Below are positions 33 through 36,478 of a stretch of DNA of 64,000 bases, piece by piece. The notes beneath the pieces are model-generated. The model was not told where the DNA came from. It saw only the letters and a list, made by a program, of their open reading frames with translations, and made no database searches. Numbering within the stretch: the stretch's first letter is position 1; every line of letters starts with the position of its first letter. Both the position numbers and the translations under genes were made by a program. The DNA lies in assembly GCF_016864015.1 (NCBI RefSeq), contig NZ_CP045067.1, positions 35,001 through 99,000 of the forward strand, written 5' to 3'. This stretch comes from Lacinutrix sp. WUR7 (GTDB lineage Bacteria > Bacteroidota > Bacteroidia > Flavobacteriales > Flavobacteriaceae).

Positions 33-92
33 AAAAAGATTTAGCGGATAGCCTGACGTTAGTTACCCCTTTAGGTAAATAACGGAACGCCC
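33..92. repeat. Structured flavobacterial repeat, copy A (one half)
   Basis: This is the right half of a structured intergenic element that occurs twice more in the window (copies B and C). It holds the conserved block AAAAAGATTTAGCGGATAGC, then a variable hairpin, then AACGCCC. The hairpin arms are CGTTA-TTACC (57-67) and GGTAA-TAACG (74-84), ten pairs with one G/A mismatch. The matching left half (GCGTT and GGCATCC blocks) would lie beyond the window start. Coding strand is not known. It lies upstream of thrS but ends well before the thrS promoter. Confidence 0.7.
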
Positions 93-9110: not shown

Positions 9111-9333
9111 GATCTAGGGATTATTTTCGCAATTTTTGTTTCTTATTTTAGGAACTGAAAGCTATTCTGCTTTTCTGTATCCATAGAAGTAAGTAGGTGG
9201 CGTAAATTTATGTAAATAAAAGCTATATCCTTAAAATTATTCCCTTAAAAATGAATGCACTCGAAAGCGCCATGCTTAATTGCCCTATTGTGTTTGTTAT
9301 ATTTCTTCCCTAGATGAAGGTTTGTTAGGATTT

Positions 9334-9483
9334 GCGTTAAGGATTGTAGTGGCATCCTTTTTTTATGTTTGTTCCTGTATTTCGCGTAGTATTCGCAAAA
9401 TGCATGAATAATAAATAAAAAAAGATATAACGAAAAGCCTGCCAATTCTTGCTCTTCTTTAAAAAGAGCGAGAATAGAACGCC
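9334..9483. repeat. Structured flavobacterial repeat, copy B (complete)
   Basis: Left block GCGTTAAGGATTGTAGTGGC plus ATCC and a T run (9334-9364), a variable middle, then right block AAAAAAAGATATAACGAAAA (from 9417), a variable hairpin, and AACGCC (9478-9483). GCGTT (9334) pairs with AACGC (9478). ATCCTTTTTTT pairs with AAAAAAAGAT with one bulged C. The variable hairpin has 12-nt arms at 9445-9456 and 9464-9475, eleven Watson-Crick pairs and one wobble. The whole looks like a three-way junction RNA. Strand unresolved. Confidence 0.75.
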
Positions 9484-28037: not shown

Positions 28038-28110
28038 GACCTGGTAGCTCAGTTGGTAGAGCATCTCCCTTTTAAGGAGAGGGTCCTGGGTTCGAGCCCC
28101 AGCCCGGTCA
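28038..28110 (+). tRNA. tRNA-Lys(TTT), first copy
   Basis: A 73-nt cloverleaf without encoded CCA: acceptor GACCTGG / CCCGGTC, D arm GCTC/GAGC, anticodon stem TCTCC / GGAGA with loop CTTTTAA (anticodon TTT), T arm CTGGG / CCCAG. Position 5-68 of the acceptor is a T/C mismatch. Identical to the second copy. Confidence 0.97.
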
Positions 28111-28117
28111 CTAAAAG

Positions 28118-28147
28118 CCATTAATTTTTAATTAGTGGTTTTTTTTT
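28118..28147 (+). terminator. Terminator after first tRNA-Lys
   Basis: CCATTAAT (28118-28125) pairs with ATTAGTGG (28131-28138) including one wobble, followed by a run of T. Confidence 0.75.
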
Positions 28148-28210
28148 ATATATCTCTAGAAATAGAGTATGATCATTTTTTTAGTATTACATAAATTGTT
28201 ATTAAACAAT

Positions 28211-28283
28211 GACCTGGTAGCTCAGTTGGTAGAGCATCTCCCTTTTAAGGAGAGGGTCCTGGGTTCGAGCCCCAGCCCGGTCA
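28211..28283 (+). tRNA. tRNA-Lys(TTT), second copy
   Basis: Identical over all 73 nt to the copy at 28038-28110, including the T5/C68 acceptor mismatch. Only a few flanking bases agree, so the duplication is confined to the tRNA. No clear promoter of its own was found. Confidence 0.97.
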
Positions 28284-28284
28284 C

Positions 28285-28317
28285 AAAAAAAGTTAAGCAT
28301 TCGCTTAACTTTTTTTT
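28285..28317 (+). terminator. Terminator after second tRNA-Lys
   Basis: Arms AAAAAAAGTTAAGC (28285-28298) and GCTTAACTTTTTTT (28303-28316), loop ATTC, T run. It begins 2 nt after the tRNA. Confidence 0.9.
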
Positions 28318-28339
28318 ATTTATATTAGTTTTTTATTTT

Positions 28340-28423
28340 GCGCACGTGGCGGAATTGGTAGACGCGCCAGCTTGAGGGGTTGGTGGACATTAGTCTGTGG
28401 AAGTTCGAATCTTCTCGTGCGCA
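28340..28423 (+). tRNA. tRNA-Leu(GAG)
   Basis: An 84-nt class II tRNA. Acceptor GCGCACG / CGTGCGC, D loop with GGAATTGGTAGAC, anticodon stem CCAGC / GTTGG with loop TTGAGGG (anticodon GAG, reads CUC/CUU), long variable arm, T loop TTCGAAT. No encoded CCA. Confidence 0.95.
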
Positions 28424-30844: not shown

Positions 30845-33115
30845 TTAAGAATTGTTTTCTTTTTTAATTAAGTTTAATGCAGAACCTTCATTATACCAAT
30901 CAATTTGTGGTTGGTTATAGGTATGGTTTAGCTTAATTACATCTTTACTTCCATCGGCATGAACAATCTCTAGTGTTAATTGTTTTCCAGGTGCAAATTC
31001 ATTTAAATCGGTAAAGTTGAATGTATCGTCTTCTTGAATTAAATCGTAATCGTTTTCATTAGCAAAAGTTAAACCTAACATTCCTTGTTTTTTAAGGTTT
31101 GTCTCATGAATACGTGCAAAAGATTTTACAATAACTGCAGCAACACCTAGATGTCTTGGTTCCATAGCAGCATGTTCACGAGAAGAACCTTCTCCGTAAT
31201 TATGATCTCCAACTACTATAGTTTTTACACCAGCTGCTTTATAAGCTCTTGCTGTATCTGGCACTCCGCCAAACTCGCCAGTTAATTGATTTTTAACAAA
31301 GTTTGTTTTCTTACCGAAAGCATTTACAGCTCCAATTAAACAGTTGTTAGAAATATTATCTAGATGTCCTCTAAAACGCAACCATGGTCCAGCCATAGAA
31401 ATATGATCTGTGGTACATTTACCAAAAGCTTTAATTAATAGTTTCGCGCCATTAATAGTATTTCCTAATGGTTCAAATGGTGTAAGTAATTGTAAGCGTT
31501 CTGAAGTTGGACTAACAGAAACTTCCACTTTACTACCATCTGCAACTGGTTCTAAATAGCCAGCATCTTCCACTGCAAATCCTTTTGGCGGTAATTCCCA
31601 TCCTGTTGGCTCATCGAACATTACTTCTTGACCATCTTCATTAATCAATTTATCGGTTAACGGATTAAAATCTAATCTACCTGCAATTGCAATAGCAGCC
31701 GTTATCTCTGGAGAGGCCACAAAAGCGTGTGTATTTGGGTTACCATCTGCACGTTTCGCAAAGTTTCTATTAAACGAGTGTACAATACTATTTTTTGGTG
31801 CATTTTTAGGATCGCTATATCTTGCCCATTGTCCAATACATGGTCCACAAGCATTCGTAAATATTTTAGCATCTAATTTTTCAAAGATTCCTATAATACC
31901 ATCTCTAGCCGCTGTATAACGCACTTGTTCTGATCCTGGATTAATACCAAGTTCTGCTTTCATTTTTAAACCTTTATCTAAAGCTTGTTGTGCAATAGAA
32001 GATGCTCTGGATAAATCTTCGTAAGAAGAGTTTGTACAAGAACCTATTAAACCCCATTCTACTTGAAGTGGCCAATCGTTAGCTTTTGCTTTCTCGTTCA
32101 TTGTTTTACCAACTGGAGTAGATAAATCTGGAGTAAAAGGTCCATTTAATAATGGTCCTAATTCCGATAAGTTAATTTCAATAACTTGATCGAAGTATTG
32201 TTCTGGATTTGCATACACTTCTGCATCTCCTGTTAAATATTCTCTTACTTTATTTGCAGCATCTGCAACATCTGCTCTATCGGTAGCACGTAAATAACGT
32301 TCCATAGAATCATCATAACCAAATGTTGATGTGGTAGCTCCAATTTCTGCTCCCATATTACAAATCGTTCCTTTTCCTGTACAAGACATCGAAGTAGCTC
32401 CTGTTCCGAAATATTCTACAATTGCTCCAGTTCCTCCTTTTGCAGAAACGATACCAGCAACTTTTAAAATCACATCTTTTGGTGCCGTCCAACCCGAAAG
32501 TTTTCCAGTTAATTTAACACCTATTAATTTTGGGAATTTAAGTTCCCAAGCCATTCCTGCCATAACATCAACAGCATCTGCTCCACCAACTCCAATGGCA
32601 ACCATACCTAATCCACCAGCATTTACTGTATGTGAATCTGTACCAATCATCATTCCTCCTGGAAACGCATAATTTTCTAGGACTACTTGGTGGATAATCC
32701 CTGCTCCTGGTTTCCAGAAACCAATCCCGTATTTATTAGAAACGGAAGCTAAAAAATCAAACACCTCACTACTTACCGAGTTTGCGTGTTTTAAATCTGA
32801 TGTCGCTCCGTCTTTTGCTTGTATTAAGTGATCACAATGTACCGTAGTTGGTACTGCTACTTGTGGTTTACCTGCTTGCATAAATTGCAATAATGCCATT
32901 TGTGCAGTTGCATCTTGACAAGCAATACGATCTGGCGCGAAGTCTACATAATCTGTACCCCTTGTGAATGCCTTTGTAGGACTTCCATCCCAAAGATGAT
33001 TATATAATATTTTTTCTGAAAGTGTTAACGGCTTACCAACAACTTCACGTGCTTTATCTACACGTTCCGCCATTTGAGCATAAACCTTCTTGATCATATC
33101 AATATCGAATGCCAT
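30845..33115 (-). CDS. Aconitate hydratase (mitochondrial-type)
   Basis: A 756-aa [4Fe-4S] enzyme that interconverts citrate and isocitrate in the TCA cycle. Iron-sulfur cysteines are seen in [10 protein letters not shown] near residue 358 and [10 protein letters not shown] near 423-426. Substrate-site motifs include [14 protein letters not shown] and, in the swivelling domain, [18 protein letters not shown]. Length and order match the mitochondrial aconitase class. A second, AcnB-type aconitase is encoded 565 bp upstream on the same strand, so the cell has two unrelated aconitase classes side by side. Confidence 0.95.
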
Positions 33116-33278: not shown

Positions 33279-33309
33279 AAAAAGCCCGAATCTAAGATTC
33301 GGGCTTTTT
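33279..33309. terminator. Orphan perfect terminator hairpin
   Basis: 14-nt perfect arms AAAAAGCCCGAATC (33279-33292) and GATTCGGGCTTTTT (33296-33309), loop TAA. Works on either strand. No gene ends here: both aconitase genes run on the minus strand and one starts 164 nt beyond. Confidence 0.85.
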
Positions 33310-33331
33310 ATATGCTTTACTGTTAAAAACA

Positions 33332-33396
33332 CCCCTATGAGCTACGCTCGGTATCTTCAATGAAAATATATTTTCATTTCAATAATCCTCAAGGGG
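33332..33396. ncRNA. Structured segment with long-range stem
   Basis: CCCCT (33332-33336) and TGAG (33338-33341) pair with CTCA (33388-33391) and AGGGG (33392-33396), nine pairs with one bulge. Inside lies the perfect palindrome AATGAAAATATATTTTCATT (33359-33378), and GAGC/GCTC can form a competing small hairpin (33339-33349). It sits between the orphan terminator and the structured repeat and may be part of the same transcript. Confidence 0.45.
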
Positions 33397-33421
33397 ACAT
33401 TACTCATACTCTAGAATTAGT

Positions 33422-33569
33422 GCGTTAGGGATTGCAGTGGCATCCTTTTTTTTTATAAGTACCTAAATACGTATTAAAAGGTTTATTTAAGATGCTATCC
33501 TATTGTTCCTTTTTTACAATGATGTTAAAAAAAGATATAGCGGAAAGCCCGACCCTTGTGGTAACGCCC
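33422..33569. repeat. Structured flavobacterial repeat, copy C (complete)
   Basis: Left block GCGTTAGGGATTGCAGTGGC plus ATCC and nine T residues (33422-33454); right block AAAAAAAGATATAGCGGAAA from 33527, small hairpin ACC/GGT (33552-33562), ending TAACGCCC. GCGTTA (33422-33427) pairs with TAACGC (33562-33567). The T and A runs pair as the second arm. The T/A arms close a variable middle (33455-33526). Same architecture as copy B. Confidence 0.78.
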
Positions 33570-33625: not shown

Positions 33626-33654
33626 AAAATCCCGAATCTAAGACTCGGGATTTT
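33626..33654 (-). terminator. Intrinsic terminator after acnB
   Basis: AAAATCCCGAATC (33626-33638), loop TAA, GACTCGGGATTTT (33642-33654), with one A/C mismatch; T-rich on the minus strand. It lies 26 nt after the stop. Confidence 0.82.
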
Positions 33655-33679: not shown

Positions 33680-36478
33680 TTATCTCACTAATTGTTTAGT
33701 TGATGGCTTGAATTTTGTTAAAACAATACCATCCACTGCAGCTTCATATTCTGCCATCGTAGGTGTTCTTCCTAAAATGGTAGATAACACTACAACTGGT
33801 GTAGAAGATAATAAGGATTCCCCTTTTTTCTCTCCAGAATCTTTTACAACTCTACCTTGGAATAAACGTGTTGAAGTCGCCATTACCGTATCTCCTGGTG
33901 CCGCTTTTTCTTGGTTCCCCATACATAAGTTACATCCTGGACGTTCTAAGTATAACATGTTTTCGTATCCTGTACGTGCTTCTCCTTTAGGTGCATTGTC
34001 ATCAAATTCGAAACCAGAGTATCTTACTAAAACTTCCCAGTCTCCTTCTGCTTTTAATTCATCTACAATATTATATGTAGGAGGTGCAACTATTAATGGT
34101 GCTTTAAACTCCACTTTACCATATTGCGCTTCTACGTTTTTCAACATTTGCGCTAATATTTTCATATCTCCTTTATGCACCATACAAGATCCTACGAAAC
34201 CTAAATCTACTTTTTTAGTTCCTCCGTAGTAAGACAATGGTCTAATATTATCATGTGTATAACGTTTAGAAACATCATCGTTATTTACATCTGGATCCGC
34301 GATCATTGGTTCTACAATTTGGTCTAAATCAATAATAACTTCTGCATGATATTTAGCGTTAGCATCTGGTCTTAAAGATGGTTTCATACCAGTTTTAAGC
34401 TCTATAATTCTAGTTTCTGCTTTATCTACAAGACCTTTAAGTACTTGTTTCGCATTGTCCATTCCTTTTTCAATCATGATTTGGATACGACCTTTTGCGA
34501 TTTCTAAAGATTCGATTAAGGTATCATCTTCAGAAATACAAATAGATGCTTTTGCTTTCATCTCTGCTGTCCAATCTGTAAAAGTAAAGGCTTCATCTGC
34601 AGTAAGTGTTCCGATGTGTACTTCGATCACACGACCTTGGAATACGTTTTCACCCCCAAACTGCTTTAACATTTGTTGTTGTGTTGCGTGCACCACATCA
34701 CGGAAATCCATATACGATTTCATTTGTCCTTTAAAGGTTACTTTAACGGATTCTGGAATTGGCATTGAAGCCTCACCTGTAGCTAATGCCAAGGCAACGG
34801 TTCCTGAATCTGCTCCAAAAGCAACACCTTTAGACATACGTGTATGTGAATCTCCTCCAATAATGATATCCCAATCACCTACAGTAATATCATTAAGTAC
34901 TTTATGAATAACATCTGTCATTGGAAAGTACTTTCCTTTTGGATCACGACCGGTAATTAAACCAAAATCGTTCATAAAGCTCATTAATCTTGGAATATTA
35001 GCTTTAGACTTATCATCCCAAACTGAAGCAGTATGACAACCAGATTGGTATGCACCATCTACTATTGGAGAAATAACTGTAGCAGCCATCATCTCTAATT
35101 CTTGAGAAGTCATTAAGCCTGTAGTATCTTGAGAACCTACAATGTTAACCTCTGCACGAACGTAAGAGCCAGCATGTAAAGTTGCTCCTGAAGTTCCTAC
35201 TGCATTTTTATTAAATATTTTTTCAACCGCTGTTAAACCTTGTCCTTCAATAGTCACTTCTTTAGAAGTAGCATATACTTGAGGAGCTTCAATACCTAAG
35301 GTTTTTGCCGCAAATGTTTGTAATTTTTTACCAAATACAACAGCATAAGAACCACCTGCTTTCATAAACTCCATTTTTTGTGGTGTAAATGCTGCAGAAA
35401 TATCTTTAAGTTCTTTATCTCCGTTATATAGTTTTTTCTCTTTTGTATTTATGGTAAGAAATGTACCTGTAGCTACAGAATACATTTCTTTTAATATTGG
35501 TTCCCCATCTGCATCTCTAACGGTATTTCCTTCTGCATCTTTTTGTTGTACCCAGTTTTTAAGATCTAAACCAATACCTCCTGTTACACCAACTGTTGTT
35601 AAGAAAATTGGAGCAATACCATTAGTCCCTGCAATTACAGGAGCAAAATTAATAAATGGTACATATTGACTAAAAGGAACACCTGTCCATAAAGCCACAT
35701 TGTTTACACCAGACATTCTAGAAGAACCAACTCCCATTGTTCCTTTTTCTGCAATTAGCATGACACGCTTATCTGGATGTTGTTCTTTTAAAGCTAATAA
35801 TTCATTTTGCATGTCTTTATTATGCTCGAACATACATTGACCATGTAACTCACGATCGGATCTGGAATGTGCATCTCCTCCTGGAGATAATAAATCGGTT
35901 GAAATATCACCTACTCCAGCAACATAAGTAACTACGTCTATTGTTTCGTCTAGCTCTGGAAGCTTTGTAAAAAACTCTGCCTTAGCATAACTTTCTATAA
36001 TGTCTTTTGCTATTTCACTACCATTATTGAATGCATCTTCTAAACGAGAAGTATCTGCTTCATAAAGGAAAACTTGTGTTTTTAAAACGGCTGCAGCTTC
36101 TTTTGCGATAGCAGCATCTGCTCCTAAAGCTAAATCTAATAATACTCTCACGGAAGGTCCTCCTTTCATGTGCGACAATTGCTCTAAAGCAAAAGCTGGA
36201 GTAATCTCTTCCACAGTAGATTCTCCTAAAATGATTTCTTTTAGAAACTTTGCTTTAACACTTGCAGCACTTGTTGTACCAGGTAAAACATTATAGATAA
36301 AGAAGTTTAGAGATTCTTCTCTATCCGCATTATCTACATCTTTAATTTGAGTAATGATTTCGCTAAGTAATTCAGCACCATCAATTGGCTTAGGATGAAG
36401 ACCTAATTCTTTTCTGTCTTCAATCTCTTTAAGGTAATCTTTATACGTGTTCATATAACTGGAATAATTCTTTTTCAA
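33680..36478 (-). CDS. acnB: Aconitase B / 2-methylisocitrate dehydratase
   Basis: A 932-aa AcnB-type enzyme. The N-terminal HEAT-like domain (about 1-160) and swivelling domain (about 165-390, with GTMGVGSSRMSGVNN) precede the iron-sulfur core, the reverse of the other aconitase class. Core motifs: GGDSHTRMSKGVAFGADSGT, GSCMVHKGDMK (cluster Cys near 765) and GCNLCMGNQ (near 848-852). It catalyses citrate-isocitrate conversion and often 2-methylisocitrate dehydration in propionate use. Here it lies upstream of the second aconitase with a repeat between. Confidence 0.96.
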   Translation of the reverse strand: MKKNYSSYMNTYKDYLKEIEDRKELGLHPKPIDGAELLSEIITQIKDVDNADREESLNFFIYNVLPGTTSAASVKAKFLKEIILGESTVEEITPAFALEQLSHMKGGPSVRVLLDLALGADAAIAKEAAAVLKTQVFLYEADTSRLEDAFNNGSEIAKDIIESYAKAEFFTKLPELDETIDVVTYVAGVGDISTDLLSPGGDAHSRSDRELHGQCMFEHNKDMQNELLALKEQHPDKRVMLIAEKGTMGVGSSRMSGVNNVALWTGVPFSQYVPFINFAPVIAGTNGIAPIFLTTVGVTGGIGLDLKNWVQQKDAEGNTVRDADGEPILKEMYSVATGTFLTINTKEKKLYNGDKELKDISAAFTPQKMEFMKAGGSYAVVFGKKLQTFAAKTLGIEAPQVYATSKEVTIEGQGLTAVEKIFNKNAVGTSGATLHAGSYVRAEVNIVGSQDTTGLMTSQELEMMAATVISPIVDGAYQSGCHTASVWDDKSKANIPRLMSFMNDFGLITGRDPKGKYFPMTDVIHKVLNDITVGDWDIIIGGDSHTRMSKGVAFGADSGTVALALATGEASMPIPESVKVTFKGQMKSYMDFRDVVHATQQQMLKQFGGENVFQGRVIEVHIGTLTADEAFTFTDWTAEMKAKASICISEDDTLIESLEIAKGRIQIMIEKGMDNAKQVLKGLVDKAETRIIELKTGMKPSLRPDANAKYHAEVIIDLDQIVEPMIADPDVNNDDVSKRYTHDNIRPLSYYGGTKKVDLGFVGSCMVHKGDMKILAQMLKNVEAQYGKVEFKAPLIVAPPTYNIVDELKAEGDWEVLVRYSGFEFDDNAPKGEARTGYENMLYLERPGCNLCMGNQEKAAPGDTVMATSTRLFQGRVVKDSGEKKGESLLSSTPVVVLSTILGRTPTMAEYEAAVDGIVLTKFKPSTKQLVR

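Follow-up and report, generated by a model that had tools for sequence, protein, structure and literature searches.

Copies of Flavo-1 are kept foldable into a three-way junction made of a closing stem P1, a stem P2 with conserved internal loops and a free hairpin P3, after which an unpaired GCCCAAA follows. Its inner P2 section serves as a cartridge. The core known to Rfam as Flavo-1 (cartridge A) is exchanged for core B, core C or short cores within a frame that keeps its place and orientation. Many copies lie right against stop codons, mostly those of genes on the opposite strand; resident copies retain their pairing through compensatory change, and in phage contigs cartridge A is found behind a gene that resembles the large terminase. 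The Flavo-1 copies thus belong to a larger modular family. From this pattern we infer, with somewhat less than even confidence, that the working form is a folded single strand of DNA, which a protein supplied in trans would bind with a specificity set by the cartridge.

Flavo-1 copies in the Lacinutrix window

Flavo-1 RNA is Rfam family RF01705, reported by Weinberg et al. in 2010 (PMC2864571). The accessible text of PMC9029176 lists it without function, and in these sources, as far as they are accessible, it has been a catalogue entry without function since 2010. The elements described here share with it the sequence and the two-block stem, the occurrence in Flavobacteriaceae and the presence of many copies per genome.

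The window (the whole 64-kb stretch of Lacinutrix sp. WUR7 DNA that was analysed) holds two whole copies, B and C, and part of a third, A (Table 1). A first-pass annotation had listed three copies in which two conserved blocks pair through GCGTT with AACGC and a T run with an A run; this pairing, the coordinates and the letters are confirmed. Its count of three holds for B and C as whole elements, while A is a right half only. The left half of A falls beyond the edge of the window, in a stretch given as N in the genome, and the RF01705 search gave no report for this half copy. The suggestion that the blocks might equal Flavo-1 is borne out for B and C, which both score above the Rfam cut-off of 42 bits; a faster genome-wide search gave just 26.4 bits for a portion of copy C. 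At up to three mismatches, the right block matches the window three times (33-52, 9419-9438 and 33529-33548; 0.08 expected from shuffles), and the left block with GCGTTA matches exactly at two positions (9334 and 33422; 0.00 expected from shuffles). As annotated, each copy has a P3 hairpin of its own, with ten positions including one mismatch in A, twelve positions, one of them T-G, in B, and three positions in C. A short P3 of the copy C type is also found in many other copies.

Table 1. Flavo-1 elements and their parts in the window.
Feature	Position	Strand	Basis
Copy A, right half only	33-92	+	right block with 2 mismatches
Copy A, right block	33-53	+	read from sequence
Copy A, P3 arms	58-67 and 74-83	+	read from sequence
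Copy A, P1 right arm AACGC	86-90	+	read from sequence
Copy B, whole Flavo-1, cartridge A, extended form	9334-9483	+	Rfam match 9329-9448, 50.0 bits; left block exact, right block 1 mismatch
Copy B, P1 left arm GCGTT	9334-9338	+	partner AACGC 9478-9482
Copy B, P3 hairpin	9445-9475	+	arms 9445-9456 and 9464-9475, read from sequence
Copy C, whole Flavo-1, cartridge A, extended form	33422-33569	+	Rfam match 33415-33558, 46.2 bits; both blocks exact
Copy C, P1 left arm GCGTT	33422-33426	+	partner AACGC 33563-33567
Copy C, short P3 hairpin	33552-33562	+	ACC 33552-33554 with GGT 33560-33562

The own genome (G000, 3.99 Mb) contains at least 47 Flavo-1 matches at E<=1 and at least 40 above the cut-off. 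These counts are lower bounds because 150 of 1052 candidates were scored. Across 40 genomes, the own one included, 26 have matches at E<=0.01 and 22 have matches above the cut-off. The best named phoH matches come from Lacinutrix sp. (93%) and Lacinutrix neustonica (90%), which points to a probable Lacinutrix-like flavobacterium.

Fold and covariation

The Rfam consensus pairs the two blocks only and has neither P1 nor P3. The fold described here adds P1 (GCGTTA/TAACGC) and the varying hairpin P3. Among 103 parsed copies from the genus, 84 have this extended form, with P1, with P3 between the right block and P1, and with GCCCAAA after P1. Nine follow a 'classic' form (TAGCC...AGCTTCTAA) without P3, and ten fit neither rule. 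The P3 hairpins of the 84 extended copies comprise 66 distinct sequences, and their stem score reaches 5 or more in 65% of cases versus 4% for shuffled letters.

Three window copies are too few to show covariation. In 58 de-duplicated host and viral copies, rows with misplaced or degenerate P1 retained, covariation is seen, and it is strong in a blind as well as in a structure-aware test. In the blind mutual-information test on the 58 copies, the nine top column pairs are partners in P1 or P2, with values of 0.340-1.133 against a maximum of 0.237 in 60 column shuffles. Rank 10 is a C-A position inside P2 and rank 11 lies at the foot of P3; ranks 12 and 13 (0.264 and 0.243) also exceed the shuffles but join columns that do not pair in the fold. 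Over all 58 rows the named fold has 94.2% of its 1044 cells paired, versus 28-54% when the partners are slid by 1-3 columns, with double changes in 13 of 18 pairs. The structure-aware test on 46 of the 58 copies finds 95.7% of 828 cells paired (shuffled 81.6%; slid 30-49%) and double changes in 13 of 18 pairs, and 0 of 500 shuffles reach either measure. The two-block stem by which Flavo-1 was defined covaries in the copies here. P1, which is absent from the Rfam model, shows double changes in four of its five pairs in the 46 copies, and the helix of two base pairs between the two unpaired internal loops is paired in 98.9% of cells.

Exchangeable cores in a constant frame

The right-frame search pattern AGC-S-Y-GAC, 4-33 nt, GTAACGCCCAA matches 7 of 7 genus genomes (reversed control 0) and 65 of 199 family genomes (one control match). 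Cores were read by eye at 30 genus loci, where 21 are A or variants of it, six are core B (TTGTTGGAGC/GCGACTGCC) and three are core C (TTTGTTTGAGC/GCGAG); one of the A loci is without a regular left half. A set of 51 distinct elements, which includes loci fetched by core B, divides into 29 A, 13 B, 7 C and 2 with neither. At the loci from the family search, the left frame is found too in 24 of 24 cases at up to two mismatches, with 11 A, 2 B, 3 C and 8 unclassified cores. Read by eye, the eight comprise A-like cores with compensated changes, B/C-like cores and two short cores. Cores B and C and the short cores go unreported by Rfam; nine phoH loci with core B gave a single match, at 41.3 bits, below the cut-off of 42.

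Exchange of the core is seen at one and the same chromosomal site. In the 400 nt behind phoH at 80 named loci, core A is present in 7, core B in 10 and neither in 63, and a purC-like gene follows in all 17 carriers and in 55 of the 63 non-carriers. On a quick phoH tree the three states (A, B, none) need 11 changes, and A and B alone need at least four among the 17 carriers. One sister pair differs in its core (L292 with A, L334 with B; SH-aLRT 98). A and B may alternate at the phoH-purC site through a core swap in an element that stays put, or through loss of one element and insertion of another at the same position.

Placement at genes and retention between species

Placement was read from 105 copies, 48 from the own genome and 57 sampled from four other genus genomes. 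In 36 of the 48 own copies and in 73 of all 105, orthologues included, the right-hand neighbour gene is encoded on the opposite strand. Neighbour orientations are -- in 50 copies, +- in 23, ++ in 24, -+ in 7 and ?+ in 1, so that divergent intergenic regions hold seven. The right end of P1 lies 7-10 nt from the stop codon of the right gene in 25 of 58 cases and within 13 nt in 32 of 58, and the left end lies within 15 nt of a same-strand stop in 17 of 38. Since GCCCAAA occupies most of the gap of 7-10 nt, the element in effect abuts the stop codon. The window copies are not of this tight kind. B and C, at 254 and 112 nt, show the majority orientation; copy A has the minority orientation and lies 178 nt upstream of the start of ORF 271-2205. 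A constant sense orientation upstream of one gene class, as in cis-regulatory leaders or riboswitches, is not seen among the 105 copies, and the flanks of the 84 extended copies hold no promoter-like pattern at a fixed distance on either side. A replication-strand rule was set aside as weak: 30 copies run counter to the leading strand and 18 follow it (hand count; origin near 1.3 Mb from a skew fit, terminus placed by hand at 3.3 Mb).

Many of the 105 copies have both neighbour genes and the orientation in common with a copy in another species. In the alignments listed for 22 groups of such orthologous copies the cores are conserved, and the P2 tips and P3 vary. Compensated changes separate some orthologues. 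In the L008 group, P1 reads GCGTTA/AACGC versus GTGTTA/TAACAC, and the same copy has AGTG/AACG versus AATG/AATG; the L014 group has AGCG/AGCG versus AGTG/AACG. Other palindromic repeats are inserted in P2 tips or core flanks in one species and not in another. Nested palindromes of the types GTTCGAGTG...CGAGAAC and CCTGCAAGGTTTTAAAACC are seen in P2 tips or P3 of L014, L029, L065, L093 and L012 and are missing from the orthologue in some groups.

Copy C sits between two aconitase-like ORFs, 30845-33115 and 33680-36478, both on the minus strand. At this site the element is also present in G001, G002 and G004 and is missing in G005. Two closely similar terminator-like hairpins lie on either side of copy C (33283-33312 and 33626-33653 of the window); in the element-free G005, a single hairpin of this type separates the aconitase-like genes. 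Loss by recombination or absence may both account for G005, and this reading of an empty site concerns site C in G005 only. A further dispersed repeat (33325-33401) lies in the same intergenic region and has several more copies in G000, G002, G003 and G004; it is missing from the G001 locus, where Flavo-1 stays.

Copies in phage contigs

A search of IMG/VR with three patterns gave 20 contigs with a clear copy (hand count, up to four anchor mismatches). In 17 of them, representing about 12 distinct sequences, the element lies antisense directly behind an ORF of 530-580 aa or a fragment of one. The right block and the stop are 19-52 nt apart in 14 measured cases, one of them at 95. The contigs L162, L165 and L191 have other neighbours, and L173/L195 and L183/L188 carry a second copy elsewhere, away from the terminase-like gene. 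The adjacent ORFs are homologous to each other at about 21-90% identity. Three of ten match a PHROG large-terminase family at E<=0.001 (best 6.9e-16), and Pfam gave no match for the four tried; the remaining ORFs are named terminase because they are homologous to the matching ones. The phage P1 stems differ in sequence and keep their pairing (GCGAT/ATCGC, GCAATA/TATTGC, GGGTT/AACCC, GCATAA/TTATGC).

Approached from the terminase side, in two sets of 80 loci of which 148 were testable, an antisense element lies within 130 nt in 17 of 148 loci, some of them contigs already counted, and in 0 of 148 with reversed letters; two of the 148 loci have a weak sense match at threshold. The link is strong from the element side and a minority trait from the terminase side. 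Prophages with such a terminase occur in 7 of 149 family genomes at 26-34% identity. In named phages, one blastn search returned 17 records, all at chance level (E about 1 or more). For cartridge B, 21 stretches of viral contigs match one pattern and 0 have the left half. Rfam reported Flavo-1 and nothing else on ten viral contigs. Another conserved noncoding motif, roughly GACCCGCYC ... GGATATATGA in this or a variant form, is found behind the terminase-like gene at L161, L173, L203, L205, L210-L214, L216 and L218, including places that lack Flavo-1. Of six genes scanned that neighbour the phage element on its left, past the gap, two encode ArdC N-domain proteins.

Folded DNA or structured RNA

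The first-pass annotation had taken the pairing as the mark of a selected RNA structure. Pairing kept by selection is upheld by the covariation, and its RNA nature is not upheld by the mispairs, the lack of a promoter-like flank and ambiguous transcript data. An RNA helix would be expected to favour G-U, yet the pairs are almost all Watson-Crick. In P1 and P2 of 90 de-duplicated copies we count 11 G-T, 10 A-C and 37 other mispairs in 1080 cells, so that G-T is no commoner there than chance mispairs. The ratio of G-T to A-C is 5:2 in P3 and 8:3 in the P2 tips of de-duplicated copies, 13 to 5 together; with related copies included, the P3 count is 13 versus 2. Eight tRNAs of the same DNA have 16 G-T in 173 pairs, a comparison in which the ARAGORN brackets under-count A-C. 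Three tRNA genes stand in tandem at 28038-28423 of the window, the first two identical in score and sequence. The strand given by Rfam has purine-rich internal loops and the lower folding energy in 66 of 84 copies by a slight margin. The same lean is found in 33 of 43 own elements and in 102 of 172 flanking stretches.

According to the accessible text of a 2021 transcriptome study of Flavobacterium psychrophilum (PMC9723704), Flavo-1 hits lie in either sense to transcribed regions and many lie outside them, some transcribed 5' regions coincide with hits, and transcription gave no clue on Flavo-1. Because of the P1/P2 mispairs, the missing promoter-like flank, the mixed orientation and this transcriptome, we lean to folded DNA bound in trans. 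The working form would be a folded single DNA strand, as a hairpin or cruciform; a protein supplied in trans would bind it with a specificity that resides in the cartridge, and the folded site would be used on chromosomes and on phage DNA alike. The covariation of P1 and P2, the compensated changes between orthologues, the exchange of cores in one frame and at one site, and the placement in 17 of 20 phage contigs also argue for this reading. Against it stand the purine loops and the energy on the Rfam strand, the G-T excess in P3 and tips, the small size of the tRNA comparison (eight tRNAs, A-C under-counted), the absence from the own genome of RAYT, the one candidate family of binding proteins tested, and the low share of terminase loci with the element (17 of 148). 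In bacteria, covarying folds are mostly RNA, which also counts against DNA. A further step is possible, although we hold it more loosely. Flavo-1 would be one of the cartridges in a modular family of DNA sites that fold and are common to Flavobacteriaceae and phages, in which a constant frame (P1, outer P2, P3 and GCCCAAA) stands at gene ends and the exchangeable core decides which host or phage protein recognises the site. Core swapping would then be the record of a contest, or of a division of labour, between recognition systems.

A serious rival, and a real possibility, is that the element is a structured RNA with a cis effect where transcripts end. It would belong to the 3' region of the neighbour gene, or be a short RNA antisense to the end of that gene, and would influence termination, stability or 3' processing. 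Such an RNA fits the close approach to stop codons at both ends of the element, the purine-rich loops and lower energy on one strand, the G-T surplus over A-C in P3 and tips, and the transcribed 5' regions that coincide with Flavo-1 in the accessible text of PMC9723704. It fits less well with the two orientations to genes, with hits that are sense, antisense and outside transcribed regions in the same source, and with P1 and P2 showing no G-T preference and the flanks no fixed promoter pattern. A family of small RNAs acting in trans, with variable hairpins or middles setting the targets, would agree with the Rfam type 'Gene; sRNA' and with many copies that differ in P3 (66 distinct in 84); we consider it unlikely, given that there is no promoter-like flank, that position is tied to the stop codons of neighbours and that the accessible text of PMC9723704 reports no consistent transcripts.

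Equally doubtful is the reading of the copies as remains of a mobile repeat, functionless in place, whose hairpins were perfected by template switching (quasi-palindrome correction). Dispersal, a presence that varies by species (site C missing in G005, the phoH site empty in 63 of 80), Watson-Crick-only pairing that is blind to strand and the palindromes inserted in tips would all be expected of such remains. Local hairpin correction does not explain, however, that P1 covaries across the whole element and that the two-base-pair helix between the unpaired internal loops covaries as well; loops and core are conserved, and orthologous copies are kept. Least probable in our view is a signal for phage DNA packaging, or one otherwise related to terminase, that spread into host chromosomes. 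Such a role is suggested by the single orientation directly behind the terminase-like gene, which holds for 17 of the 20 viral contigs (about 12 sequences once duplicates are merged) and for proteins down to about 21% identity. Against it, the element accompanies few of the related terminase loci (17 of 148), host copies follow ordinary genes (phoH and an aconitase are examples), a second copy lies elsewhere in two contigs, and the name terminase derives from PHROG matches of three proteins in ten.

Relation to known systems

attC, REP/RAYT and the ends of IS200/605 are, by their geometry, single-strand hairpin sites, and the folded DNA proposed here may work in a similar mode without being a member of any of them. 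REP and BIME elements with RAYT transposases are dispersed palindromic repeats at gene ends, as is the element described here; it differs in being a three-way junction with exchanged cores and in that RAYT is missing from the own genome. A RAYT as mobiliser was rejected, with 0 PF01797 (Y1 transposase) matches in G000 at E<=1e-5 despite abundant Flavo-1, and RAYT is present in 13 of 40 relatives without tracking the number of Flavo-1 copies. Integron attC sites stand just behind a stop codon, fold on the strand opposite to the coding strand and have a free terminal hairpin, and the element resembles them in all three respects. In contrast to the outward GTT polarity of attC R boxes, its ends read GCGTTA...TAACGC with inward GTTA polarity, and its neighbours are syntenic ordinary genes rather than cassettes.

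While Flavo-1 itself is known, P1, P3, the cartridges and the phage copies are not described in the accessible main text of the open-access literature on it, and the placement at stop codons is not described in the accessible text of Weinberg et al. 2010 (PMC2864571). Together, P1, P3, the exchangeable core, the stop-codon placement and the phage copies turn Flavo-1 into a testable problem, with the questions of which protein reads the cartridge, whether it does so on DNA or RNA, and what advantage a phage draws from keeping the element next to that gene. Copies that the present Rfam model misses would also be found by a model that combines the frame with the cartridges. Within the own genome, two Flavo-1 copies (L031 and L070, G000:C1:811458 and 812091) lie on opposite strands and point towards one another across about 600 nt.
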